A DNA stretch of 64,000 nt, from positions 558,001-622,000 of the forward strand of contig JAIUOC010000001.1 in the NCBI GenBank assembly GCA_020161265.1, given 5' to 3'. The notes under the pieces are model-generated. The model was not told the origin of the DNA. It was given only the letters and a program-made list of their open reading frames with translations, and did not search any database. Positions 46,855 through 63,573 of this stretch are shown in pieces; position 1 is the stretch's first letter; each line of letters starts with the position of its first letter. Made by a program: the position numbers and the translations under genes. Origin of the DNA: Chloroflexota bacterium (GTDB taxonomy: Bacteria; Chloroflexota; Chloroflexia; Chloroflexales; Herpetosiphonaceae).

Positions 46855-49800
46855 CCTCTGGGCGGATCGAATTATTGAAATATCTTATTGCCTGGACGTA
46901 AACGCAGGAACAAGATTGTTTCAGTATCCTCTGGGCGGATCGAATTATTGAAATGCTCGCGCTGATACTGCCGTTCGGCGCTCGTGATCTGTTTCAGTAT
47001 CCTCTGGGCGGATCGAATTATTGAAATTTGCAAGCGTTTCTTGTCGCATCAAGTCAAGAAGCGTTTCAGTATCCTCTGGGCGGATCGAATTATTGAAATT
47101 CGCCATGGCTGCGGCCTACGAATTGACCTACGTGTTTCAGTATCCTCTGGGCGGATCGAATTATTGAAATCAGCGTGTTGGGCCATGCGTTCGTCATGTA
47201 TCGCTAGTTTCAGTATCCTCTGGGCGGATCGAATTTTTGAAATAAACACGCCATTGATAATAGCGCGAGGTGGATACGTTTCAGTATCCTCTGGGCGGAT
47301 CGAATTTTTGAAATCTGTGCCCTTGCCGGTGGTCAATCGCCGATGCTCACAGTTTCAGTATCCTCTGGGCGGATCGAATTATTGAAATGGCTAGCAAATT
47401 ACTCTATATTGTGTCGGATAAGACGGTTTCAGTATCCTCTGGGCGGATCGAATTATTGAAATTCTGGATTGTGCGAAATATTCTAGGTCTATCGACTTGT
47501 TTCAGTATCCTCTGGGCGGATCGAATTATTGAAATACGCCCACCCGCAAGGCCGAGCGCCAAGCCCGCATAGTTTCAGTATCCTCTGGGCGGATCGAATT
47601 ATTGAAATCACCACCAGCGATCATCATAGCTTGCTGATTCCGATGTTTCAGTATCCTCTGGGCGGATCGAATTATTGAAATAGGAGCCTGCTCGGCTATC
47701 GGTGGTCTTGGCTGGATTGTTTCAGTATCCTCTGGGCGGATCGAATTATTGAAATGCTGCCAACTTAACTCATATGTATGTAGGAGGTAAGTTTCAGTAT
47801 CCTCTGGGCGGATCGAATTATTGAAATATTAAACCTTGTGAAGTTAAATTTAAAGTAAACATAGTTTCAGTATCCTCTGGGCGGATCGAATTATTGAAAT
47901 ATGGGCTTGCTAAGCAGCGTTCAGAGGCCTATGCACGTTTCAGTATCCTCTGGGCGGATCGAATTATTGAAATCAGTTAGGTAATTTGCTAGCTGGATTT
48001 GATGCTAGTTTCAGTATCCTCTGGGCGGATCGAATTATTGAAATTGCAATACAGATTATACCAATAACACGCATGGTTAAGTTTCAGTATCCTCTGGGCG
48101 GATCGAATTATTGAAATCAACCCGTAAACCCATTCGCTGTATTGGCGTTGAACGTTTCAGTATCCTCTGGGCGGATCGAATTATTGAAATTTCGCTAAAA
48201 GCATGGCGGCAACTGATGCAAACGTTTCAGTATCCTCTGGGCGGATCGAATTATTGAAATGTGCGGGCGGGTCGTTGTTGCCCGCTGCGGGCCAATGTTT
48301 CAGTATCCTCTGGGCGGATCGAATTATTGAAATTGCAACACGCCAACAAATCCTTAGCTATGGCCGACAGTTTCAGTATCCTCTGGGCGGATCGAATTAT
48401 TGAAATAAATTATCAGCGGGTGGGGCGATGCTCGACCAGGTGTTTCAGTATCCTCTGGGCGGATCGAATTATTGAAATATGGAGTAGTTATGGCAGGTAA
48501 CACCGAAGTCGATTGTTTCAGTATCCTCTGGGCGGATCGAATTATTGAAATTTTGGTTGATACCGCCCTCTAGCATGCGACCCTCATGTTTCAGTATCCT
48601 CTGGGCGGATCGAATTATTGAAATTGCCTTGTACCGACCACCCCACCCGACGGTTGAGATTTGTTTCAGTATCCTCTGGGCGGATCGAATTATTGAAATG
48701 ATTTTGAGCGCCACACAGCGCCAACGCTGATGATGTTTCAGTATCCTCTGGGCGGATCGAATTATTGAAATCGGAATGAATCAAGCTTGGTTTTGACCTC
48801 ATCAATGTTTCAGTATCCTCTGGGCGGATCGAATTATTGAAATTTCATCATTATCATGGTTGCGTAATCCAATGAAATGTTTCAGTATCCTCTGGGCGGA
48901 TCGAATTATTGAAATGACCAGATCGCGCATTGCCGAAAATACCATGACATGTTTCAGTATCCTCTGGGCGGATCGAATTATTGAAATATTTGACCGCCAG
49001 CGCAGCGCGTAGACCACAACGAGTTTCAGTATCCTCTGGGCGGATCGAATTATTGAAATTTACCAGTAAACGACTTAGTAGGCTGTTATCCAAGAGTTTC
49101 AGTATCCTCTGGGCGGATCGAATTATTGAAATAATCAATCAAGCACGATTCGATCTTTCTATGGCAAGTTTCAGTATCCTCTGGGCGGATCGAATTATTG
49201 AAATGGCCCACGATCCCAATGCTCTATGACCATACCCTTGTTTCAGTATCCTCTGGGCGGATCGAATTATTGAAATATGCTCTTGATCTGGCTGGTGTTG
49301 TGGATCGCCAATGTTTCAGTATCCTCTGGGCGGATCGAATTATTGAAATCTTTATGGCAGGCAGAGGATACTAACGGCAAGTTATGTTTCAGTATCCTCT
49401 GGGCGGATCGAATTATTGAAATCCCGTGGCGCTGGCCTTTAGTATCACCGTTGAAGGTCGTTTCAGTATCCTCTGGGCGGATCGAATTATTGAAATTGCC
49501 GCCAAGCTGGCGCTTTGTGGCCTCGATGGTGCGTTTCAGTATCCTCTGGGCGGATCGAATTATTGAAATATCAAAAGAAGGCATTACGTGAAACCCCGCA
49601 AGCGTTTCAGTATCCTCTGGGCGGATCGAATTATTGAAATGGCAACGGTAACACCTCCATACAATTGTCAAATATCGTTTCAGTATCCTCTGGGCGGATC
49701 GAATTATTGAAATAGTTTGTAAACTATCTAGTCATTATCGGCATATTTATGTTTCAGTATCCTCTGGGCGGATCGAATTATTGAAATGCTGCCAACTTAA

Positions 49801-52800
49801 CTCATATGTATGTAGGAGGTAAGTTTCAGTATCCTCTGGGCGGATCGAATTATTGAAATACTGTCTATAGTGCAACCTATTTTAAAACTGGTTGGTTTCA
49901 GTATCCTCTGGGCGGATCGAATTATTGAAATTTGTGTTTTAGCTGCTATTTGCTCCTCGGATAAATCGTTTCAGTATCCTCTGGGCGGATCGAATTATTG
50001 AAATAGAATCGGCCACGGCAATGCCCAATACTCACCTTGTTTCAGTATCCTCTGGGCGGATCGAATTATTGAAATACTTGAGGTCAATTGCCAGCTCGCG
50101 CTCCAAGCAGAGTTTCAGTATCCTCTGGGCGGATCGAATTATTGAAATGAAGATGTCACAGCATGCTTACTAGGCCTTAATATGTTTCAGTATCCTCTGG
50201 GCGGATCGAATTATTGAAATTGCTATCAATTCAGGCGGAGGATACCACCTATATTGTTTCAGTATCCTCTGGGCGGATCGAATTATTGAAATCCACCGAA
50301 TCACACGCCGCTGCTGGCGTAGCCGTTTGTTTCAGTATCCTCTGGGCGGATCGAATTATTGAAATCGGCGGCTTGCTCACGAATCCGGCGCTGTCCATTG
50401 CTGTTTCAGTATCCTCTGGGCGGATCGAATTATTGAAATTGATATTATCAGTCGCTTGTCGGCGCTGAATGGTACGTTTCAGTATCCTCTGGGCGGATCG
50501 AATTATTGAAATATGCCGTGAGTTTCTTTCAACATCTCTTGGAAGTTGTTTCAGTATCCTCTGGGCGGATCGAATTATTGAAATACGCTTGGCAGCCGTC
50601 ACCACTAGCGATGCAACGTGTTTCAGTATCCTCTGGGCGGATCGAATTATTGAAATTTTCTTAGGAGTTTGATATGAGATGGATAGTAGGCGGTTTCAGT
50701 ATCCTCTGGGCGGATCGAATTATTGAAATGCTTTGACCCGATTGATCGGATTCCTAAGCTGCGCACGTTTCAGTATCCTCTGGGCGGATCGAATTATTGA
50801 AATCGCGCCGAAGCACGCTTAAGAGAGGCGATGCACCACGTTTCAGTATCCTCTGGGCGGATCGAATTATTGAAATCTCGCAAGTATGAGTATGTGGTGC
50901 ATGAGGCGACATGTTTCAGTATCCTCTGGGCGGATCGAATTATTGAAATAGGTACTCTCTCGCTAAGCGTCTAAGCATGTACTAGTTTCAGTATCCTCTG
51001 GGCGGATCGAATTATTGAAATTCGCGTGCATCACCATAGCAACTTTGCGTTTCCGTTGGTTTCAGTATCCTCTGGGCGGATCGAATTATTGAAATAACCA
51101 TTGCAGTACGTTTAAACCCTTCCCAAAGTTGGTTTCAGTATCCTCTGGGCGGATCGAATTATTGAAATCTGTATTAGATACTTATGCCGTGCTTAAAAGT
51201 TTTGGTTTCAGTATCCTCTGGGCGGATCGAATTATTGAAATTTACCTCGTAGATACTAGTAAAGTATTTACACTGCTGTTTCAGTATCCTCTGGGCGGAT
51301 CGAATTATTGAAATTCCTCTAATATATGGTACGGTTCGATGCGTGCAATTGGTTTCAGTATCCTCTGGGCGGATCGAATTATTGAAATCGATTGCCACCG
51401 CAGGCCCAGCCCCCGCCGATCCGTAGTTTCAGTATCCTCTGGGCGGATCGAATTATTGAAATGGCTCCTAAACAGTATTATATCGAGCCGTTTGTAGGGG
51501 GTTTCAGTATCCTCTGGGCGGATCGAATTATTGAAATCTAAAGGCTTTAACACTGAGGTGAAACCAGACAAGGTTTCAGTATCCTCTGGGCGGATCGAAT
51601 TATTGAAATCAATAAATACCTTATTGCTATGTGGAAAGCTTTGAGTTTCAGTATCCTCTGGGCGGATCGAATTATTGAAATTTAATGATCTTTTGGTAAA
51701 AGCTGGAGGCTTCAAGTTTCAGTATCCTCTGGGCGGATCGAATTATTGAAATATATACAGTTTTATTAGTCAAGAGTCAAAAAGGTACGTTTCAGTATCC
51801 TCTGGGCGGATCGAATTATTGAAATGCGCTGCGAGACGATCAAAAAGCGGCTCGTGTCCTTGTTTCAGTATCCTCTGGGCGGATCGAATTATTGAAATGC
51901 AATAAATACCTTATTGCTATGTGGAAAGCTTTGAGTTTCAGTATCCTCTGGGCGGATCGAATTATTGAAATTACCAGTTACGACCATTATGCCCGTGTAC
52001 ATCATACGTTTCAGTATCCTCTGGGCGGATCGAATTATTGAAATATAGGTTTGTTTTTGATCGGGAGGCTAAAGTTAATGTTTCAGTATCCTCTGGGCGG
52101 ATCGAATTATTGAAATCGCTCGGATACTTCCGTAGCACTGCCATCTTTATTAGTTTCAGTATCCTCTGGGCGGATCGAATTATTGAAATTATAATTGCAG
52201 CGAAGGAACAACCCTCGAAACCGGAGTTTCAGTATCCTCTGGGCGGATCGAATTATTGAAATCCTACCTACTCATACCTTGATAAAAACAATTTCAAGTT
52301 TCAGTATCCTCTGGGCGGATCGAATTATTGAAATGAACAACCTAAACCAAAAGCAAAAAGAACTAAGAAGTTTCAGTATCCTCTGGGCGGATCGAATTAT
52401 TGAAATGTCTCAAGCAACTATCGCTCTAGATGCTGACATGTTTCAGTATCCTCTGGGCGGATCGAATTATTGAAATCAGAGGCAATAGACATATATGTAA
52501 GGATTGTTGGGTTTCAGTATCCTCTGGGCGGATCGAATTATTGAAATCTTATTAGATAAGGTTATCGGCTCGTTTATTTTGTTTCAGTATCCTCTGGGCG
52601 GATCGAATTATTGAAATTCGATTAGCCATATGTTTATACTCCTTAGTTTAAAAGAGTTTCAGTATCCTCTGGGCGGATCGAATTATTGAAATCGGATCTT
52701 CTAAGTATTTGGCTTTACGTCCGTTTGTTTCAGTATCCTCTGGGCGGATCGAATTATTGAAATAGAAAGCAGGCCTAGTAGCAGAGCAGTTTAAGGAGTG

Positions 52801-53195
52801 TTTCAGTATCCTCTGGGCGGATCGAATTATTGAAATGTGAGTTCAGTATCTTAAGTGGTGTAAATCCCCTAGTTTCAGTATCCTCTGGGCGGATCGAATT
52901 ATTGAAATATCCCCAACAAATGCCGCCGTGTGCGTTCACGTTGGTTTCAGTATCCTCTGGGCGGATCGAATTATTGAAATAGCTCTTTGCCGTATTCCAT
53001 GGCGACCTCGCAGTGTTTCAGTATCCTCTGGGCGGATCGAATTATTGAAATTCGCCGCTGATCAAATTGACCGATGTTTCAGCCAGTTTCAGTATCCTCT
53101 GGGCGGATCGAATTATTGAAATGAAAGATGATCCAATCACCACCCACAATCAGCGGATGTTTCAGTATCCTCTGGGCGGATCGAATTATTGAAAT
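46855..53195 (-). CRISPR. CRISPR array, 87 complete 37-nt repeats plus one truncated repeat
   Basis: The repeat on the minus strand starts ATTTCAATAATTCG and ends GAGGATACTGAAAC (37 nt), the usual ...GAAAC handle of type I repeats, so transcription runs from the leader at 53.2 kb leftwards. Complete repeats run from 46918-46954 to 53159-53195; the trailer-end copy (46855-46881) lacks 10 nt and abuts an IS remnant. The period is 70-75 bp, giving 87 spacers of about 33-38 nt. Repeats at 47207-47243 and 47278-47314 share one A-to-T change (plus strand). Two spacers occur twice (47756-47790 = 49788-49822; 51610-51644 within 51899-51934). Open frames across the array are artefacts of the repeat. 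Confidence 0.99.
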
Positions 53196-53489: not shown

Positions 53490-54083
53490 CTAAAGCACAT
53501 CATTACAAAAGCGCCGAAATTCGCAATTGACACAAATTGCTTGTTGTTTAGGTGGCTCCGGCATAGTTTCATGGGCAATCATCTGGTGAATTTGCTCGAT
53601 GCTGCGTTGAACATCGTTAAGCTGGCGTTGACCCAACGGAATTTCAATCGCTTTACGCAACGGGAGCAAATAGCTAAATGCACGGCGAACCGGTTTTTGC
53701 CATTGCTCCATCACTAATAACGCATACGCCGCTAATTGGGCTTTGACATGGCTGCCTGGCATGCGCTCCGAAAGTTTATATTCAATCGGAATACACTCGG
53801 TTTCAGTCATAATAATTAAATCGAGCATCCCAACTAATCGATAGCGCTCTGAGCGAAGCAAAATATCAAAATGACGCTCGCCAGTTGTCAGCCCATAAGA
53901 GCGCAACGATCGCCGTTCTTCGCGACCAATTTCTTCGCGATGGCGCTCGATTCCAAGTTCCATTTTGCCAGTTATTGGTCGAACCCGCGGTAAACAGTAA
54001 CGATAAAAAACGACTCTCGGGCAAATTCGTGCCTGTTTGATGTCGGTAACTTCGAGAAAATAGTTGGGTTCATTGGTCGCCAT
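53490..54083 (-). CDS. cas4: Cas4 exonuclease
   Basis: A 197-residue RecB-like nuclease. An N-terminal Cys in ARICPRVVFYRY and a C-terminal CVNCEFRRFC provide the four iron-sulfur ligands. The nuclease core has GMLDLIIMTETECIPIEYKLS (Asp and Glu-x-Lys) and the helix AQLAAYALLVMEQ (QxxxY). It trims and selects PAM-containing prespacers for Cas1-Cas2. ATG 54083 is chosen (AAGGAG upstream); the gene overlaps cas2 by 14 nt. It is the last cas gene before the leader. Confidence 0.93.
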   Translation of the reverse strand: MATNEPNYFLEVTDIKQARICPRVVFYRYCLPRVRPITGKMELGIERHREEIGREERRSLRSYGLTTGERHFDILLRSERYRLVGMLDLIIMTETECIPIEYKLSERMPGSHVKAQLAAYALLVMEQWQKPVRRAFSYLLPLRKAIEIPLGQRQLNDVQRSIEQIHQMIAHETMPEPPKQQAICVNCEFRRFCNDVL

Positions 54084-54384
54084 CATCACTCCTTTCGCCC
54101 CAGCCATCGTCATCATCGGCTAAGATTGGGGCTGATTTGGGCTTGCCTGATGAACTGCGATGCTCAGCCCAATCTTTGGCACAAATCGGAATCATTTCAA
54201 TTGAATGTTCTTGATTGAGCACCAATTTGCTGATTTTGAGCCACAATTCTTCGCTCAGCGTGCGTGGAATATCGCCCATAAACGCACTATATTGAATCCG
54301 TTTTAGCGCATAATCAAGGCATAAATCGGCAACTTTACTACGAATGCGATCATCCACAATATCGTAAATCAGGAGTGTGCGCAT
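54070..54384 (-). CDS. cas2: Cas2
   Basis: 104 residues. A ferredoxin-like fold begins RTLLIYDIVDDRIRSKVADLCLDY with the conserved Asp after strand 1, then IQYSAFMGDIP. The C-terminal ~28 residues (after KDWAEHRSS) form an acidic, Asp/Gly-rich tail (ILADDDDGWGERSDDGDQ) longer than in many Cas2 proteins. Forms the Cas1-Cas2 integrase core. It starts 3 nt after the cas1 stop. Confidence 0.93.
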   Translation of the reverse strand: MRTLLIYDIVDDRIRSKVADLCLDYALKRIQYSAFMGDIPRTLSEELWLKISKLVLNQEHSIEMIPICAKDWAEHRSSSGKPKSAPILADDDDGWGERSDDGDQ

Positions 54385-54387
54385 AGA

Positions 54388-55401
54388 CTACCACGAGGCA
54401 ATAAATGGTGTGTAGGTTTCGCGATCGCCGCGCACAAATGTTGCGAGATGGCGAGCTTGGGATTGCATAATTACCCGCAAACTCACCCGTTTGGCCTCGT
54501 ATGGCTCGCTTGCTTCCAACCTTTTAAATAAGCGTTCGCGAATCATCTCGCGCGTATGGTCGCTTAATCGGCCAGTTTCATCTTGCTCGATCGTCATTTT
54601 GCGATTCACCAAACCCAAAATCGTGCGATCAACCACGGTTTGACGAAATTCTTCAATTAAATCAAGGACTAATGATGGTTTACCAGGCCGATCAGTGTGC
54701 ATAAAACCACCATATGGATCAAGCCCAGCCAGAACGAGACAACGCTCGATTTGGCTATACAAAATGCCATAGCCATAATTCAAGGCACTATTGAGCGGAT
54801 CACGTGCTCCTTGGGTTTCACGCCCAGGCCAATCTAAATCACAGAGCAATAATTCACGCACGCCAAACCAATAACGAGCTGCGCCGCGACCTTCGATACT
54901 CAACAGTGAAGGCCGAATTTGCTCAAGCTGCTGCGGCATAACCCGCTCAGCTTCAATAATATGATCACGCATTTCGGCGATAATTGGCTGAACCCGTTGA
55001 AAACAAGCAGGATCAGCCGTTTTGCGATATTTGGCCATCATTCGAAGTAAATTATGCTGATTTTCTAATTTGCCACAGACAAATGCGCGAGCTAGCCATG
55101 CACCGCGCTCATTTTCAAAAGCCTGCAATTGGGCACGTCGTGTTTGCACCGTACCCGTTAATCCGGCGCTATAGAGCGAAGCATAGGCAGTACCTGTGCT
55201 ACTCAAAAAATGAATGGGAATGCCATGCTCGGCGCAAGCTCGCACTGCATCGGATGAAATTCCAACGCCATACGATTCGATAATAACGTGATCAAGAATT
55301 AATAATGGAACTTCAGCCAAACGCTCTTTTTCACGCATGACCCGCAAACGACCTTGATGTTTTTGAATAAATGTGCCCCGTTCATGGACAATTAATTCCA
55401 T
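54388..55401 (-). CDS. cas1: Cas1 integrase
   Basis: 337 residues from the ATG at 55401 (GGAG 8 nt upstream). The N-terminal beta domain (ELIVHERGTFIQKHQGRLRV) is followed by the all-alpha catalytic domain. Metal ligands are Glu in LSIEGRGAARYW (~170), His in GFMHTDRPGKPSL (~235) and Asp/Glu in LVLDLIEEFR (~247-250). NSALNYGYGILYS is the family Asn-Tyr signature. All active-site residues are present, in line with the long array. Six-gene spacing in this operon is tight throughout. Confidence 0.97.
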   Translation of the reverse strand: MELIVHERGTFIQKHQGRLRVMREKERLAEVPLLILDHVIIESYGVGISSDAVRACAEHGIPIHFLSSTGTAYASLYSAGLTGTVQTRRAQLQAFENERGAWLARAFVCGKLENQHNLLRMMAKYRKTADPACFQRVQPIIAEMRDHIIEAERVMPQQLEQIRPSLLSIEGRGAARYWFGVRELLLCDLDWPGRETQGARDPLNSALNYGYGILYSQIERCLVLAGLDPYGGFMHTDRPGKPSLVLDLIEEFRQTVVDRTILGLVNRKMTIEQDETGRLSDHTREMIRERLFKRLEASEPYEAKRVSLRVIMQSQARHLATFVRGDRETYTPFIASW

Positions 55402-55419
55402 CATATGCTCCAAGTTTGG

Positions 55420-56379
55420 TTATGAAATTCGATAAACCCCATTGCCTTTGGTGGTATCTTTGCCAACTTGAATCACGCTGCCCCAGACCAATAGTGGCAA
55501 CAGTGGCCCTAAATCGCCCGCATAATGGGCAGTACCAACCAAGCCCCCAATTGGAGTTTTACGCCGTTGCCGCGATGAATAACTATCAAGATCAACCCAA
55601 TGCGTATCGTTTTGCACAAGTTTGATAGTGGCAGCGGCGTTAAGTAAGGCCAAGCGTTGCTCATAGGCAAATGGTTCGCCACCATGTTCGCGAGCTAATC
55701 CATCATGGCGCTCGGTTAAACGTTGCACAATTGGGCGAAGCTGTGGCACTTTGAGCAAAATTTTCTGCTCAATAATCCGCAGCGGAGTCATAAAATGCAA
55801 CGTCAGCAGATCGTGTGGTAATGATTGAGCAATGTGTTCAGCATCAGCCCAAGTCATCGGCAAGTTCGGCACTTGAATCCGTTGGCTACCAGCAGTTTGA
55901 ATCGGCTGAATGTGATCATGGAGTAATTGCACCGCATCAACTTGCTCGACCACAAACCGCCCGCGCTCCCAATCATTTTCAGCAACCCGTTTGCCCACCC
56001 CATTTTGGCCCATCATATGTAAAGCCATCGCCACATACGGAAATAAATTGGTTGATTGGCCAATCAAGGTCAAGCCCCACGAAAACTGCTCATTTGGCTG
56101 AAACGAACCAGCATGATGAATTGGCGGACGGATAGCGAATGGTCGGGGTATATCATTGCCGCGCGGCGAAGCATCGCGATGTGGAGCCATTAAACTGCTG
56201 ACGGGGCAAGCCTGCAATAATGGGCATTCCACACAGGTTTTGGCGGCATGGTTGGTGCAAAAACGCTCCCAGAGCGCAGTGAAAAACGCCCCGCGCAGGG
56301 CCGCCCCAGTGTGCACATGCAACTGGAGCGGCGCAGTGGCCTTGGCTTGAACGCGAATATGGTGAACAGCAAGAGTCAT
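55420..56379 (-). CDS. cas6: Cas6 endoribonuclease
   Basis: 319 residues of the RAMP-type Cas6 family, predicted to cut the pre-crRNA in each repeat. The C-terminus has the Gly-rich loop GSVIQVGKDTTKGNGVYRI. Near the N-terminus four Cys (41, 49, 52, 58 in CTNHAAKTCVECPLLQAC) could bind a metal. GTAHYAGDLGPLLPLLVWG is the second-fold core. The catalytic His cannot be chosen by eye. GAGGAG precedes the ATG, which overlaps the cas5 stop by 4 nt. Confidence 0.85.
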   Translation of the reverse strand: MTLAVHHIRVQAKATAPLQLHVHTGAALRGAFFTALWERFCTNHAAKTCVECPLLQACPVSSLMAPHRDASPRGNDIPRPFAIRPPIHHAGSFQPNEQFSWGLTLIGQSTNLFPYVAMALHMMGQNGVGKRVAENDWERGRFVVEQVDAVQLLHDHIQPIQTAGSQRIQVPNLPMTWADAEHIAQSLPHDLLTLHFMTPLRIIEQKILLKVPQLRPIVQRLTERHDGLAREHGGEPFAYEQRLALLNAAATIKLVQNDTHWVDLDSYSSRQRRKTPIGGLVGTAHYAGDLGPLLPLLVWGSVIQVGKDTTKGNGVYRIS

Positions 56380-57116
56380 GTCAGCTCCTCAACAATCCGT
56401 GTGTATAACGTATAGCGATAACTAGAACGGGTTAATGCATATGGTAGAACAACCGGGCGTAAAATACGCTCATCGCTACTAATTTTGATGGATTTATCAG
56501 AATAAATATTAATGTGCTCCCAAGAGAGTTTCACTCCACAATCATCGAGTAATTGAAGCGTACCTTGAGTTAAGATACTAGTTTGGGTACTTGTTAAATT
56601 TGTCCAAGCATGGTTTAATTCCTCAATCCATACAATTTGGCTTTGACGTTGCCAAAATCCACCACGCTTACCAAAATATGAAATATGTTTAAAAGCTGCT
56701 GAAATTATCTCATCATATTGATTATCAAGTATTTTGATAGCAACACCAAGCTTATTTTCAAATTGCACAAACTCACGAAACGCTATTGTAGGATTAAATG
56801 GGTACAAACCGTCATTTAAAACCTGATTGAATTCATCAATATTTTTTTGATTAAACCGTGTTGGCCGTTGGATTTTAATAAAGGTTTTATTAACAATCAC
56901 AACCTCAGGCAAATCTAAGGCAATCTCTGCATCACGGATCGTTGGCCATACTTGACTACCAAGTTCAAGCCCAAAAAGCTGGATCGCATTACTGACCAAG
57001 GCCATTTTGATCGCAAATGGCGTTGGCACAAGCAGACTCTGAGCGCCCGACGCTGTAGCCAGCGCCGGACGCAAACTAAATAAACTTGTCGGCAAAAATG
57101 AAGCGGTCATCCACAT
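56376..57116 (-). CDS. cas5: Cas5-family protein
   Basis: 246 residues. The N-terminal strand and following loop (ASFLPTSLFSLRPALATASGAQSLLVPTPFAIKMALVSNAI) have the shape of Cas5 proteins, with a P-T-P-F-A-I-K-x-A-L segment where others have P-P-P-S-x-x-x-G-A. Sequence support is moderate; position between cas7 and cas6 makes the call. It would cap the 5' handle of the crRNA in Cascade. GAGGAG 8 nt before the ATG. Confidence 0.75.
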   Translation of the reverse strand: MWMTASFLPTSLFSLRPALATASGAQSLLVPTPFAIKMALVSNAIQLFGLELGSQVWPTIRDAEIALDLPEVVIVNKTFIKIQRPTRFNQKNIDEFNQVLNDGLYPFNPTIAFREFVQFENKLGVAIKILDNQYDEIISAAFKHISYFGKRGGFWQRQSQIVWIEELNHAWTNLTSTQTSILTQGTLQLLDDCGVKLSWEHINIYSDKSIKISSDERILRPVVLPYALTRSSYRYTLYTRIVEELT

Positions 57117-57132
57117 ACGTTATACTCCTCGT

Positions 57133-58125
57133 TTAACGTCCAGTTTGCAATCCAAATTGAAGTGGTCCACTATTAGTAATTAAGTTGGCAAGGATTGTGC
57201 TTAAACTGGCAAAGTCGTGAAATTCTTCCACCACGACAGACTCAACTGCTTCACCAGCATTCAACGCAGCCTTTACTTGGGTACTTTGGTTGATAAATTG
57301 AGGATTAATGGCACTGAATGTTGGGGCAGGAATGGTACTTGTGCTATAACTAACTACCCCACGAATATCAACAAGGTGCGGCAATTGAGCACTACGCATT
57401 GCTCCTGCTGGGCGAATTAAGGTATATAGCACACTTTTAAGTAAAGCCTGATAGCGTGCAAGTCGTTCTGATTCATTTAAAACATAGCGTTGACTTAGAT
57501 CGTTATAACCAATCCGTCCCAATTCTAAATTACAAACAAGCGCATATACACCGCTACTCGCAGGCCGATGGAAAATAGCCTGACCTTGGTTGCCAGACCG
57601 ATCATCACCTTCTTGGCCTGGTTTTTCGGGATTATATTTGACATGGAAATATTGTCCAGTACGCGTACTTTCAGGCCTCCCAACAACCCAACCAAATTCC
57701 ACGACGCTCTTGCGTGGAACAGATTGTTTACCTTCGGTAATCAAAATACCTTCAAGATCATCAATCATACATGCCTGGATGAGATAATCTAAGACTTGGG
57801 CAGGGCTAGGTTTTTTCTTATTGATAAATTCGATAAATGCAGGATCTCCCGAGATTCGATTAGCATTAAACCGTTTACAGGCATTACATAATTGGAGTGA
57901 TTCATTTGACTGGGCAATACGAAATAAATGTTCGGCCTGAATATGCTTAAACATATCACCAGAAATTGCATTAACGCTCTCAATCCGTGGGTTATTATCT
58001 TGATCGCGCACAACAACATCAACCATACGAGTTTGAATTTGATTACCCTCACCACCTTCATTATTAAGTGAGTGCATATCAATAATTGCTTCAGCGGAAA
58101 TTGATAATGATCCAAGTGTTTTCAT
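57133..58125 (-). CDS. cas7: Cas7 backbone protein, DevR/Csa2 family
   Basis: 330 residues. The N-terminal signature SAEAIIDMHSLNNEGGEGNQIQTRMVDV matches the DevR (Cas7) pattern A-L-N-x-E-G-x-x-G-N-x-x-x-T-R, followed by VNAISGDMFKHIQAEHL (S-G-x-x-x-[RK]-H). Later parts include GVYALVCNLELGRIGYND and LPHLVDIRGVVSYS. It coats the spacer part of crRNA in multiple copies. DevR-type Cas7 occurs in subtypes I-A, I-B and the Myxococcus dev locus. AGGAG before the ATG. Confidence 0.9.
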   Translation of the reverse strand: MKTLGSLSISAEAIIDMHSLNNEGGEGNQIQTRMVDVVVRDQDNNPRIESVNAISGDMFKHIQAEHLFRIAQSNESLQLCNACKRFNANRISGDPAFIEFINKKKPSPAQVLDYLIQACMIDDLEGILITEGKQSVPRKSVVEFGWVVGRPESTRTGQYFHVKYNPEKPGQEGDDRSGNQGQAIFHRPASSGVYALVCNLELGRIGYNDLSQRYVLNESERLARYQALLKSVLYTLIRPAGAMRSAQLPHLVDIRGVVSYSTSTIPAPTFSAINPQFINQSTQVKAALNAGEAVESVVVEEFHDFASLSTILANLITNSGPLQFGLQTGR

Positions 58126-58154: not shown

Positions 58155-59900
58155 TTATACTTCTTCCGTTTTTGAATCTATTTCATTCGATTTACGTTCC
58201 TTGCGGGCACTACCATAAGCTACAAGCATCCGAGCAATAACTGAGGGCTTATAGCCATTGTCAAGCAAGGTAATAATATCATCAAGGTCGTCTTGGGCAA
58301 CGCGTGAACGCTTATCAACTCCTTTCGATGTTTCAAATTTTTGAGCGCTTTCAGTATTATATTTAGCAATAAAATCAGTCAATGCTGCAATAAAATCATC
58401 GATATGATTAGATCGGCGAATAATTTCTTGCGTTAGTCCATAGCGAATTTCGAATGGAACTCTTTCTCCTTTCGCTTTTTTATATTGAAGATTTACCGTG
58501 CAATTTCGAATTGCATTCGCAATCCGCTGAAACCCTTCTGACTCAATAATTGAAGTAAGTGGTTTTTGCATTGAAAAGACCTCCGTAAGGGTGTGAACAG
58601 AGAAACGTTGTGGATATTCACCACGTTCGATTTTTTGGCCAACATATGGTGCATATAAAGCGCAAAAATCTAAAAGTGGCTCAACTGTACGGCTTGAAAG
58701 AAAATCACGATAGCGAGCTAATAGGGTATATTCTTCACTACGTTCACCTCCATCATAGGCACGAATACTCTGAACAACTGCAAGATGTTCCTTGATCACT
58801 AGCTCAATTTCATGAGCCTGCTCCAAGGATTCAATTGCTGGAACCCATTCAGGAATATTAAGAGCTGCAATGTTCATTACGGCAAAAGCGCTGCCCATAT
58901 CTTTATAGAATGTTACCTCACAACCATGAATTAGGTCGCTTGGTCGTTTATATTTGCGTTTCGATTGCATTTGAGTATTACTCAAAGCATTCCGCTGATT
59001 ATTTACTAGAACTTGAAGCAATCGCAAAAGATTTTGAACATCCATTTTAACAGGGCTATTACTCCAAGCAACTTCACGAAATAGATGGACAATTCTGCTT
59101 AATTCACGAAAATAGATTGCTTGTGGTTTAATAATATAGGTTTTGCGATCTTTACTATCGCGAATTACTTGAGGATGTGCCAGACGAAAGAATCCAATAA
59201 ATTTAATCCATTCTAAAATCCACCATTCTTCCATATTTCCAATATCAAGCATATTGGATTTAGGTCGATTAGCACCTTTCCCAGCTGTTGGATTCGTTAC
59301 TTGAAGCATAGTCATTGTTTGATCAAGCTTATATTGTTTGGCAAAAACCTGCCATTGTTTAAATACATCCATATATGGGTTAGGTGTAACACTAAATAGT
59401 TTCATGAGCAATTCTAAAATATAATTTTTTTGTTGAATTGCTAGATTTTTCCAGTTAATAACAGGGGGATTAAAAGAAACTGCTACCTTCATCTGATTAA
59501 TAATCAAATAAAGCGGTAATGCAGAGGCAGGTTTTTGATCTGCAATAGCAATTAAGCCAGGTTCTTGATTAAGAATTGCATCAGAATTTCGCAATTTTGG
59601 CGGCAATTCATTTAATAATTTACGATAGACATCTCGTTGTGATTTTTGTTGCTCATAAGGAAAACCATCAATAATTGGTTGCTTATCAGTACTAATCGGT
59701 TGGATTAAGTTAAGATTCTCGGTATTATCAGCCAGCATCACTGGATCAAATCGTGATCTGAGTTGATAATACGAACCTCGATCATGAATTTCGACATCCT
59801 CATTACTAAGGGCATCAAGAATTTCAGCAAAGCCGACTGCTAATAAGGTATCAGCAGACGTTCCCGAGCGTTTATCAATATAGAAGTCATATAACGGCAT
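58155..59900 (-). CDS. Divergent large subunit in the Cas8 position
   Basis: A 581-residue, mostly helical, Lys/Arg-rich protein between cas3 and cas7, where the Cascade large subunit is usually encoded. No CxxC zinc finger, HD motif or polymerase-like GGDD was seen, so neither Cas10d nor a zinc-finger Cas8b/Cst1 type is supported. Recognisable features are an N-terminal MPLYDFYIDKRSGTSADTLLAVGFAEIL segment, a Trp-rich centre (NMEEWWILEWIKFIGFF) and a C-terminal Lys-rich tail with DDLDDIITLLDNGYKPSVIARML. Function (PAM recognition, Cas3 recruitment) is inferred from position only. AAGGAG before the ATG. Confidence 0.65.
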   Translation of the reverse strand: MPLYDFYIDKRSGTSADTLLAVGFAEILDALSNEDVEIHDRGSYYQLRSRFDPVMLADNTENLNLIQPISTDKQPIIDGFPYEQQKSQRDVYRKLLNELPPKLRNSDAILNQEPGLIAIADQKPASALPLYLIINQMKVAVSFNPPVINWKNLAIQQKNYILELLMKLFSVTPNPYMDVFKQWQVFAKQYKLDQTMTMLQVTNPTAGKGANRPKSNMLDIGNMEEWWILEWIKFIGFFRLAHPQVIRDSKDRKTYIIKPQAIYFRELSRIVHLFREVAWSNSPVKMDVQNLLRLLQVLVNNQRNALSNTQMQSKRKYKRPSDLIHGCEVTFYKDMGSAFAVMNIAALNIPEWVPAIESLEQAHEIELVIKEHLAVVQSIRAYDGGERSEEYTLLARYRDFLSSRTVEPLLDFCALYAPYVGQKIERGEYPQRFSVHTLTEVFSMQKPLTSIIESEGFQRIANAIRNCTVNLQYKKAKGERVPFEIRYGLTQEIIRRSNHIDDFIAALTDFIAKYNTESAQKFETSKGVDKRSRVAQDDLDDIITLLDNGYKPSVIARMLVAYGSARKERKSNEIDSKTEEV

Positions 59901-59910
59901 ACACTACTCC

Positions 59911-62511
59911 TTAATACGTATGTGCATAAAAGAATGAACGCCAATCGCAAAGTCGTAATACTCGCACGATGAGAAAATAACAAAAGGCTTCATGTAAATT
60001 TGCTTGCAACTTCGTATCATCAGCAATTGAAGTCATCTTTTGGCTCGTTAAGCTACCAGCAAATGGAATTTGTTCGACCAATAAATCAAGCTCAAATTGC
60101 CAATCTTGCCCTTGCGAGACCAACGCTAATACATCGTTGAGTGTCGTTTGTGCCTCTTCGATCAAACGAATAGCTTGATATTCTCGCGAAAACGAGGAAT
60201 GATGCCGCGCTATTGCGGCAATCGTTGCCCGCGCAAGTTTAGCAATTTGAGGATCTTCATCTTCATAAAATCCTAGGCTGGATTCAATTAATTCATGGGC
60301 TAAGAAAGCACTTTCACAGGCATGATGTGGAGGTTTAGCAATAAGCTTGCGTAATGGTCGATGCTCTTTTTCACTATTTGTATGAGCAAAAGGATATTTC
60401 TGTGGAGCATATGTTTCATGCTTTTTAGGATATGTTTTAATCAATAGATTTTGCCAGTTCTTAGCAAAATCCTGCCAACCCTCGCCTAATTTACCAAGAT
60501 CATGGCAAGCAATCGCTAAACGAATAGCTCGGTCAATCAAACCTTTTGGTAAACGCATTATTTGCTCTAGTCTTTTAGCCGAATAATCAATCTCCTCGAT
60601 TAAACGAGATTGATATGCGCGATAGAGACCACTGATATGCTCAAAATAACTTTCTTGTTGGTATTCAATGGTATTAAATTGTTTCCGCCGAGAAACCCGT
60701 ATATCACTCTGGAAAGTACTATTCCAGTCTATTTCTAGCTGTGGAAAAGAGCCATCGCGAAAGATAATTCCAAGTTCGGAATTATATTGGACATAGCGGC
60801 GTGGGAAAGCAAGAACTAAGCTAGCAACAATTTCGGCTGAGTTATTAATAGGTTGCCAAGTATAGGTTGGCTCAATTCGCTCATCTTCGCTGGATTGCTC
60901 AACATTCAGTAATTTAGCACTATAGGCAATCACATGTTGATCATCATTTTCAAGCCAATCTGTTGTTTGCGGTAAGCTTTGGGCGGTAAGCTGTAACCTT
61001 TTCCATATTCCTAAGAGACTGCTTGGTCGTAATCCAAAGGTTTGATATTCCCAAGGCTTCGTCGTAATTGCACTATTTGGGTCATCGTGAATAACAAAAT
61101 TAACTTGGGCTACGTTACGAATTAACGTTGATGCAATTCCTCGTTCTGCACTAGCCCAACCTGAAGCAATCGATTTATCGATAGTGTCACAATTTTGAGC
61201 ATATGATTCCAATAATTTAAGATCATTTTCGGTATGAACGGCATCAATCAATGCTTGTTCTTGTAAAAACCCGACATGCTGTTGATGATACGGTTGACAT
61301 GCCTGTAAGGTATTGAGACATTCCTCGCGTTCATACGGTAGATAAGCACCTGCTTGCTCACTATCGGCAACCGGATAAATATGAACAAATCCAGTTTGCC
61401 CCGCAAATCGAGCACAACGCCCTGCTCGCTGAATCAAACTATTAGCTGGTGCAATCTCGCTATGAAGGTGAGGTATCGAAATATCAACCCCAACTTCAAT
61501 AACTTGGGTTGTAACAATAATCAAATTTTGCTGGGATGCCAAGCCGCTCGACCAAGCATCTTTGCCAGCCTTTGCAGCAATATATTGCTGCTTAAAAGCT
61601 CGATCTGGATCAGTGAATCGGCTATGAAGCAATACTATTTCGATTGTGCCTTGGGTATGTTCCTGCAACTCTAAATAGATTTGTTGCGAACGTTTGACCG
61701 TATTACAAATTACGATTGAGATAGTCTCATGACAGGCTAAGACGCTTTTAGCCGTCAATGGTTGTTCTTGCAGATCGTAGATGCGCTGACGCTGAGCATT
61801 TAGTTGATCCAACTCATTAGATTCAGCTTCTGGATCGACTTCTGGAAGCACACTCACCACTGAAGCGTTCAATATTTGTGCCAACTCTTGTATCAACTTA
61901 CTGGAAAATGTTGCGGTCATTAATGTGAATGGGCTAAGCTGTATTTGGCGCTGGTGGAGCAGCTGTAACATGCGTAGTGTAGTTGTGCGTGCCCCAAAAC
62001 TATTGCGATTTTCCTGATCAATTGGATAGAGATGAAACTCATCTAGCACTAAGTAACTGCTAATTACAGCCGCCGGATTGATATTCGCGTTTTTGCTGCC
62101 AATACCATAGGGAATACCTAAAAAGCTGGCAAGCAATTGGTCGATAGTACAAAATGTAAGTGCCGATTCAAAATGAGGGTCATTAGGCTGATCACCGGTT
62201 TGTTTGGCAATTGGCTCACGTTGAAATTCGGCAAATTGCTGACGCAGTTTTTGAGCATAATTGCGATCAATTCGTTGGGCCAAATCGGCATACTCAACAA
62301 AAAATTGTTCGGTTAACACGCGGGTTGGGACAGTGTAAATACAACGCAGCGGAAAATCTACCGCTAATTGGCCTGCCAGTTTTTGCACATAAGCCGCCAA
62401 AGCTGCCCGAGTTTTCCCAGCACCAGTTGGAGCTTGTAAAATGACATTTTGTTGTTGAGTTAAGCGATTGAAGACACGCTGTTGAAATTGGCGTAAATAG
62501 CTTTGCATCAT
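59911..62511 (-). CDS. cas3: Cas3 with helicase-HD domain order
   Basis: 866 residues. The helicase is N-terminal: Walker A APTGAGKT (27-34), DEFH box (157-160), MTATF (198-202), then VTTQVIEVGVDIS and QRAGRCARFAG in the second RecA domain. The HD nuclease domain is C-terminal (~620-860): FEHISG, ACHDLGK with His670-Asp671, HH at 729-730, ARHH at 770-771 and LCDWRS near 856. Canonical Cas3 has HD first; helicase-HD is known for subtype I-G and could also come from fusion of split I-A Cas3' and Cas3''. It unwinds and degrades target DNA. Its ATG directly follows the WYL-gene stop. Confidence 0.92.
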   Translation of the reverse strand: MMQSYLRQFQQRVFNRLTQQQNVILQAPTGAGKTRAALAAYVQKLAGQLAVDFPLRCIYTVPTRVLTEQFFVEYADLAQRIDRNYAQKLRQQFAEFQREPIAKQTGDQPNDPHFESALTFCTIDQLLASFLGIPYGIGSKNANINPAAVISSYLVLDEFHLYPIDQENRNSFGARTTTLRMLQLLHQRQIQLSPFTLMTATFSSKLIQELAQILNASVVSVLPEVDPEAESNELDQLNAQRQRIYDLQEQPLTAKSVLACHETISIVICNTVKRSQQIYLELQEHTQGTIEIVLLHSRFTDPDRAFKQQYIAAKAGKDAWSSGLASQQNLIIVTTQVIEVGVDISIPHLHSEIAPANSLIQRAGRCARFAGQTGFVHIYPVADSEQAGAYLPYEREECLNTLQACQPYHQQHVGFLQEQALIDAVHTENDLKLLESYAQNCDTIDKSIASGWASAERGIASTLIRNVAQVNFVIHDDPNSAITTKPWEYQTFGLRPSSLLGIWKRLQLTAQSLPQTTDWLENDDQHVIAYSAKLLNVEQSSEDERIEPTYTWQPINNSAEIVASLVLAFPRRYVQYNSELGIIFRDGSFPQLEIDWNSTFQSDIRVSRRKQFNTIEYQQESYFEHISGLYRAYQSRLIEEIDYSAKRLEQIMRLPKGLIDRAIRLAIACHDLGKLGEGWQDFAKNWQNLLIKTYPKKHETYAPQKYPFAHTNSEKEHRPLRKLIAKPPHHACESAFLAHELIESSLGFYEDEDPQIAKLARATIAAIARHHSSFSREYQAIRLIEEAQTTLNDVLALVSQGQDWQFELDLLVEQIPFAGSLTSQKMTSIADDTKLQANLHEAFCYFLIVRVLRLCDWRSFFYAHTY

Positions 62512-63573
62512 TTATTCTCCAAATAATGTGCGGAGAACATCATCATTCGGCATGGCACTTGGACGATTGCCCGATAATTTATAGAGTGTTCGTGCTCGTT
62601 CTAGATTGGTAATAATTGCTTGGCGTAATTCACTTGGTTCAAGGACTTCACAATCCGCCCCCCAACCTCGAATCCAAGGGACAATCGGAGTCCAATCATC
62701 AATCATAGCTTGCCAAATAAGATTGCCATAATCATCTTCTTGAATTGTTTGTGAAGGGTGCCAACGAGTTTCATAAACACGTTGACGAACCGACTGCTGG
62801 AATTTTATAACAATCTTAATTGGCTGATCATCTTGGGAAAACCAAATACCCCAAGCCCCCTCAAATAATTGAATTGGATCAAAGGTTGGATGAATTTCAA
62901 AAAGCTCATCTTCAACGACTGGAATCGAAATAATACGTTCAATTTTTCGAGCCCGCAACGCTTGGGCTTGCTCGGAAAATCCCACCACATAGGTTGAGCC
63001 ACCAAGGGCAATCGGCTCAATCATATAAGGATGAAATACTTCATTAAAAGCTTGCGATCCGCGTAGTGGTTGATAACGCCAACTTATTTTGTGCCCTGAT
63101 AGCCAAGCCTCACCAATTTTTTCTAATGCCCGTTGGGGACTGCTTTTGGCTATTGTTAATTCGGCTCGTTGGTGTGCGGTTTGTTGCAGAATATGCTCAC
63201 CTGCAAGTTTAGCAACTCCTCGACTCAGCGTAAGTCCCAGCTTATGCATCACCTCAAGTCCATGCAAGTTCGATTGTTGAAGGTGTTGTTGCATCAAACG
63301 TAGGGCAATCATGGTAATTAGGCTTTCATCACGCGATAGCCGCAGATAGGTCAAATAACTATTATGATCAATATAGATTTGGCGATCATCAGTTTGGCAA
63401 ATTGGAACCCCATCAAGGTCTAATTCCCTTAACCATCGTCGAATGGTAGCCCGATCACAATTAAATATTGCCGCTAATTCTGATTGGCGTATGGGAGTCC
63501 GACGCTCAAGCAGGAATCGCTCTAGCTTACGAACTCCCTCGATCTTGGTATAATCATGGATTTTCTTGGGCAT
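62512..63573 (-). CDS. WYL-domain transcriptional regulator of the cas operon
   Basis: 353 residues. An N-terminal winged helix (KIEGVRKLERFLLERRTPIRQSELAAIFNCDRATIRRWLRELD) is followed by a WYL-type domain (~150-240; ISWRYQPLRG, FHPYMIEPIALGGSTYVVGFSE, RKIERIISI) and a C-terminal WCX-like part. In WYL domains the ligand is thought to be nucleotide- or nucleic-acid-like. CAGGAG precedes the ATG. Its stop codon abuts the cas3 ATG, so it is co-expressed with the effector and probably regulates it; WYL regulators of CRISPR loci are known, for example in Synechocystis. Confidence 0.9.
   Translation of the reverse strand: MPKKIHDYTKIEGVRKLERFLLERRTPIRQSELAAIFNCDRATIRRWLRELDLDGVPICQTDDRQIYIDHNSYLTYLRLSRDESLITMIALRLMQQHLQQSNLHGLEVMHKLGLTLSRGVAKLAGEHILQQTAHQRAELTIAKSSPQRALEKIGEAWLSGHKISWRYQPLRGSQAFNEVFHPYMIEPIALGGSTYVVGFSEQAQALRARKIERIISIPVVEDELFEIHPTFDPIQLFEGAWGIWFSQDDQPIKIVIKFQQSVRQRVYETRWHPSQTIQEDDYGNLIWQAMIDDWTPIVPWIRGWGADCEVLEPSELRQAIITNLERARTLYKLSGNRPSAMPNDDVLRTLFGE

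Follow-up and report, generated by a model that had tools for sequence, protein, structure and literature searches.

A type I-A CRISPR-Cas operon of the Chloroflexota with a one-chain helicase-HD Cas3 and a probable internal Cas11 start

The window, as we call the whole 64,000-nucleotide stretch of Chloroflexota DNA analysed here, contains a CRISPR-Cas operon with the gene order WYL-cas3-cas8-cas7-cas5-cas6-cas1-cas2-cas4, which lies beside an array of 87 repeats. Operon and array are made up of the following features:

62512-63573, minus strand: wHTH-WYL regulator, which heads the operon in most relatives (profile matches)
59911-62511, minus strand: cas3, a single chain of 866 aa with helicase followed by HD nuclease (open reading frame, profiles, alignment)
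61072-62511, minus strand: helicase part of Cas3, residues about 1-480 (Walker A 28-34, DEFH 157-160, QRAGRCAR 361-368; Pfam, alignment, PDB match)
59911-60714, minus strand: C-terminal HD nuclease of Cas3, residues about 600-866 (H625, H670, D671, H730, H770, H771, D856; PDB match)
58155-59900, minus strand: cas8, a Cas8a-type large subunit of 581 aa with a Csa5/Cas11-like C-terminus (PADLOC Cas8a CAS-I-A, 181 bits)
58155-58571, minus strand: predicted internally translated Cas11, Cas8 residues 444-581 (ATG 7 nt after GGAGGT)
57133-58125, minus strand: cas7, DevR/Csa2 type (PF01905, 240 bits; best PDB match Cas7a 7r21)
56376-57116, minus strand: cas5, Cas5a type (PADLOC Cas5a CAS-I-A, 204.7 bits)
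55420-56379, minus strand: cas6 (profile matches)
54388-55413, minus strand: cas1 (profile matches)
54070-54384, minus strand: cas2 (profile matches)
53490-54116, minus strand: cas4 (profile matches)
46918-53195, no strand assigned: CRISPR array, 87 repeats of 37 nt and 86 spacers of 33-38 nt (repeat search)

An earlier note on this DNA had described an operon with a DevR-type Cas7 and with separate Cas5 and Cas6 proteins, and the profile matches agree, the PF01905 match of Cas7 among them; Cas1, Cas2 and Cas4 are present as well. The WYL protein (62512-63573, minus strand) matches the first 319 of the 1009 positions of the Cas3c profile PADLOC PDLC01766 with 282 bits, which suggests that WYL-Cas3 fusions exist elsewhere. 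Some spacers of the array (46918-53195) are duplicated, and a truncated repeat immediately precedes the array's left end; a comparison of its spacers with phages gave no protospacer match. A second cas1 gene is found elsewhere in the same genome (G000:C5:333710-334573).

The Cas3 protein (59911-62511, minus strand) carries a complete helicase in its N-terminal part, and in its C-terminal part an HD nuclease that is likewise complete and has its motifs in the correct order. The helicase motifs are P28-TGAGK-T34 (Walker A), D157-EF-H160 (Walker B) and Q361-RAGRCAR-368 (motif VI), and the HD residues are H625, H670-D671, K674, H730, H770-H771 and D856; Pfam places DEAD at 8-206, the Cas3-like helicase C domain at 264-369 and Cas3_HD at 647-785. 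In a 24-sequence alignment of relatives, the helicase residues P28-G30, G32-T34, D157, E158, H160, Q361-R365, A367 and R368 are invariant, as are the HD residues H625, H670, D671, K674, H730, H770, H771 and D856; of the helicase-motif residues, A31, F159 and C366 vary. From active sites so intact and conserved, both nuclease and motor activity would be expected. A single-sequence AlphaFold model of the protein was unusable (mean pLDDT 35).

In canonical Cas3 the HD domain lies N-terminal to the helicase, and the 866-aa protein departs from this layout. Because its HD motifs follow one another in the normal order, the HD domain has been moved and not permuted. Moreover, 28 further full-length homologues, each encoded in one open frame, have the same domain order, so that an artefact of assembly or reading frame does not account for it. 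The reversed order that the earlier note had pointed out is thus confirmed by Pfam, by the motif alignment and by the homologues alike.

The same note took the combination of this Cas3 with its operon as a sign of an unclassified or rare type I variant. We find instead that the system is type I-A, a branch best known from archaea: Cas8 and Cas5 match I-A models, and Cas7 and the two halves of Cas3 resemble those of archaeal I-A. Cas8 matches the PADLOC profile PDLC01417 (Cas8a, CAS-I-A) with 181 bits, and 22 of 22 relatives match it too, so the lineage is already filed as I-A. This profile is essentially made from the Deinococcus gobiensis member of the lineage (1332 bits over positions 1-555), and the Cas8 match therefore repeats the existing filing and is not an independent test. 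Cas5 matches PDLC01390 (CAS-I-A) with 204.7 bits, and a comparison with the PDB gave no match for it. Both I-A models were built from this lineage or close to it, and no library profile with a label other than CAS-I-A matches Cas8 or Cas5.

Independent support for the I-A assignment comes from Cas7, from the two parts of Cas3 and, weakly, from the C-terminus of Cas8. The best PDB matches of Cas7 are archaeal Cas7a (7r21) and Csa2, and the I-A-specific Cas7 model TIGR02583 gives 127.5 bits, below its cut-off of 212.6. The helicase profile finds its best PDB match in Pyrococcus furiosus I-A Cas3' (7tr8), with 171.6 bits as against 114 for I-E and 77 for I-C. For the HD profile, all of whose matches are weak, the best are Methanocaldococcus jannaschii Cas3'' (E 1e-4) and P. 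furiosus Cas3-HD (E 0.001-0.004), with fused N-terminal HDs trailing at E 0.03 and worse. The Cas8 C-terminus matches Csa5/Cas11a weakly; in a comparison with the bacterial I-A locus L111 (see below), the Cas8 alignment with Cas8a was limited to the C-terminal Csa5 part (E=5e-4), and the Cas5 proteins did not align.

The earlier note had named, as evidence that would count against it, Cas proteins that all point to one described subtype in which a C-terminal HD domain of Cas3 is already known. The first part holds, but I-A Cas3 is described in open-access papers as the product of two genes (PMC10482374, PMC11640852, PMC4005679) and not as a chain with a C-terminal HD domain. Reports exist of bacterial I-A loci that have a single cas3 gene, for example in Microcystis, in passages that do not comment on domain order (PMC4428289). 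No statement on a C-terminal HD in I-A was found in the open-access literature.

As for rarity, the earlier note overstated the case. Homologues were sought in 301 sampled genomes of the Chloroflexota, and about 30 of them have the same Cas3; all 29 full-length lineage members of the phylum, the one in the window included, show the helicase-HD order. Their loci mostly read WYL-cas3-cas8-cas7-cas5-cas6-cas1-cas2-cas4 or a rearranged version of this. Lineage members also occur in the phylum of Thermodesulfobacterium, the Thermodesulfobacteriota (L108, L109), on Deinococcus gobiensis plasmid P2 (NC_017791) and on cyanobacterial plasmids. A second I-A family, recognised by the Cas8a model PDLC01569 (Allomeiothermus silvanus, L071, L113, L115, L119), likewise has Cas3 in helicase-HD order. 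The viral contigs searched contained no relative of Cas8 or Cas3, and the phages searched no relative of Cas8; in a scan of genome contigs, the sole Cas3 found was of the canonical HD-helicase form (L003). One genome (G393) has both an I-A locus of the lineage (L109) and an I-G locus (L112), with a helicase-HD Cas3 in each. At another locus (L110, 6921-17788), cas6, a WYL gene and a 743-aa helicase-HD Cas3 lie directly upstream of what appear, by eye, to be type III genes, namely RAMP proteins and a 1033-aa Cas10-like protein, with no recognisable Cas8.

Six cyanobacterial plasmids encode their Cas3 in two genes, cut between RecA1 and RecA2; the gene pairs lie at the following positions:

L068, 8941-11602: split cyanobacterial Cas3
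L070, 8956-11614: split cyanobacterial Cas3
L128, 8959-11617: split cyanobacterial Cas3
L129, 8959-11611: split cyanobacterial Cas3
L130, 8959-11612: split cyanobacterial Cas3
L069, 8956-11928: split cyanobacterial Cas3

One gene encodes RecA1 (about 200-240 aa), and the other encodes RecA2 together with the HD domain (about 680-735 aa). Since both the overlap or gap between the halves and the reading frame vary from member to member, this is a true gene split and not an error; programmed frameshifting is rejected on the differing frames. It is unusual for a helicase to be split between its two RecA domains.

A further feature of the operon concerns the small subunit of Cascade. No separate csa5/cas11 gene lies between cas8 and cas7. 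Across Cas8 residues 381-480, the ATG at 444 is the sole in-frame ATG, GTG or TTG, and it lies close to where the Csa5-like part begins. In the aligned stretch, 26 of 31 relatives have a start whose Shine-Dalgarno match covers at least 4 bases. When cas8 is divided into a grid, stretch 437-483 has such a start in 26 relatives (23 by ATG), and the other stretches have one in 5-13 (1-8 by ATG). With a stricter motif and ATG alone, half of the relatives (12 of 24) have the internal start; of eleven 47-residue stretches along cas8 scored in this way, nine give zero and the neighbouring stretch gives one, and shuffling of synonymous codons yields a mean of 2.6 and a maximum of 7 in 500 trials, against the 12 observed. 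Five cyanobacterial members keep the start and have no Shine-Dalgarno match. Internal translation of Cas11 has been published for I-B, I-C and I-D, and I-A has been described with a separate gene (PMC11899642). The conserved start in cas8 would probably yield Cas11, which suggests that internal Cas11 translation extends to I-A.

How did the helicase-HD order arise? The earlier note had raised the fusion of adjacent split I-A genes, cas3' and cas3'', and this is the best account. In L111, a bacterial I-A locus from the phylum of Thermodesulfobacterium, cas3' (569 aa) and cas3'' (255 aa) share a 29-bp overlap and are followed by a cas8a-csa5 fusion and then by cas7 and cas5; the I-A operon of Thermoproteus tenax has the order csa5-cas7-cas5a-cas3'-cas3''-cas8a2 (PMC4005679). 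Joining neighbours so arranged gives the order seen in the window. With this collinear split locus, the archaeal operon order and the I-A matches of both halves, the fusion idea is well supported. That the direction was fusion rather than fission would be the simplest story, although an ancestral fusion that later underwent fission would fit equally well, since the helicase tree does not star the place of the split I-A forms among the fused ones.

In that tree, all HD-helicase Cas3s form one clade (100/99) and the I-G Cas3s another (100/99), with the fused and split forms of I-A making up the rest (75/90, not starred), and a single change of order suffices. The HD tree places the fused HDs of I-A (92) apart from those of I-G (99) and needs two changes of position. 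Taken at face value, the HD tree would mean that two independent fusions gave the I-A and I-G orders and that the likeness to I-G is convergence, a history to which we give a little less than an even chance. Against it, the AU test of one origin for all C-terminal HDs is not significant (p-AU 0.33 and 0.52), and long branches meet in the HD tree, where the L111 HD is itself a long branch. Constraining the split HD to group with the fused I-A HDs improves the likelihood, and a tree that groups the fused I-A helicases to the exclusion of the split ones is not rejected (p-AU 0.36).

The same unrejected common origin, together with the single order change on the helicase tree and the position of both I-G and I-A outside the HD-helicase clade, favours one ancestral helicase-HD Cas3 for the two subtypes, from which the split cas3'/cas3'' of archaea and thermophiles came by later fission. 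The predicted structure of Cas8g resembles Cas8a2 (PMC9638904), and related Cas3s have demonstrably split again in cyanobacteria. The free HD tree, however, parts I-A from I-G HDs, and hhalign scores the I-G HD profile higher against N-terminal HDs (112) than against the fused I-A HD (65). We regard this ancestry as a serious possibility that falls well short of even; it would alter the history alone and leave the mechanism in the cell unchanged.

With regard to that mechanism, we hold with good confidence that this is an I-A system with a Cas3 fused from cas3' and cas3'', probably bound to Cascade beforehand, and with a Cas11 that is probably internal. The array transcript would be cut by Cas6, and Cas7, Cas5, Cas8 and the probably internally translated Cas11 would assemble Cascade on the crRNA. 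As in I-G and archaeal I-A, Cas3 would already sit on Cascade before a target is recognised; formation of the R-loop would then switch on the HD site, into which the motor would feed the non-target strand. The expected outcome is ordinary RNA-guided DNA destruction. Considering that the Cas3 proteins of I-A and I-G are integral Cascade subunits (PMC4005679, PMC10482374, PMC9638904), the Cas3 of the window can be expected to be pre-bound and activated by the R-loop, and such pre-loading is, by analogy, probable.

Perhaps, instead, Cas3 joins Cascade only once the target is bound, as in ordinary type I interference, and its domain order is functionally neutral. Canonical HD-helicase Cas3s work in this way, and by our own reasoning a flexible linker could put the HD domain at the same spot on RecA1. 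On the other hand, both non-canonical subtypes, split I-A and reversed I-G, carry Cas3 constitutively (PMC10482374, PMC4005679), and we lean clearly, though by no means decisively, away from late recruitment. That the system is a divergent I-G one, or an I-A operon with a borrowed I-G Cas3, is highly improbable, since the shared domain order and the 178.6 bits of the I-G Cas3 model TIGR02621 on the helicase part are outweighed by its cut-off of 400, by profile searches that found no Cas8g, Csb1 or Csb2 in the operon, by separate Cas5 and Cas6 proteins and by a helicase outside the I-G clade (100/99); I-G membership is rejected on gene content and the helicase tree, as the earlier note had held from the lack of Csb1/Csb2-like genes.

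The I-A system of the window departs from the textbook in two respects, the one-chain helicase-HD Cas3 and a conserved internal start in cas8 in place of a separate cas11. Cas3 layout has been proposed to track the mode of activation, with split I-A and reversed I-G forms on Cascade and canonical HD-helicase forms recruited (PMC10482374). A naturally occurring I-A system whose Cas3 has the I-G layout directly tests that link, and its one-chain helicase-HD Cas3 is a testable connection between the two subtypes thought to carry Cas3 pre-loaded; expressing a single chain would also be easier than expressing the archaeal form with its two proteins. More speculatively, and in our judgement rather doubtfully, the lineage could be a living remnant of an intermediate stage that links split I-A with reversed I-G Cas3, with a constitutively Cascade-bound single chain, an ancient fusion of cas3' and cas3'' shared with I-G and an internal Cas11.

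Among known systems, archaeal I-A (P. furiosus, T. tenax) shares the Csa2/DevR-type Cas7, Cas5a, Cas8a and Cas4 with the window, together with the order cas3'-cas3''-cas8a, and its Cas3' and Cas3'' are the best matches for the two halves of the one-chain protein. The window differs in having Cas3 as one chain, a probable internal start in cas8 and no separate csa5/cas11, a WYL regulator and its own Cas6. D. gobiensis plasmid P2 (NC_017791) and the cyanobacterial plasmids belong to the same lineage by Cas8 (PDLC01417), Cas7, Cas5 and a helicase-HD Cas3, but D. gobiensis has its cas6 and WYL genes divergently placed, and the six cyanobacterial plasmids have their Cas3 divided between RecA1 and RecA2. 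The I-A system of A. silvanus (PDLC01569) has the helicase-HD Cas3, WYL, Cas7, Cas5 and Cas6 in common with the window, and differs in its Cas8a family and in the tree branch of its Cas3. Finally, I-G of Thioalkalivibrio sulfidiphilus shares the helicase-HD order of Cas3, whereas its other components are Csb2 (Cas5-Cas6), Csb1 and Cas8g, and its Cas3 helicase falls in a clade of its own.
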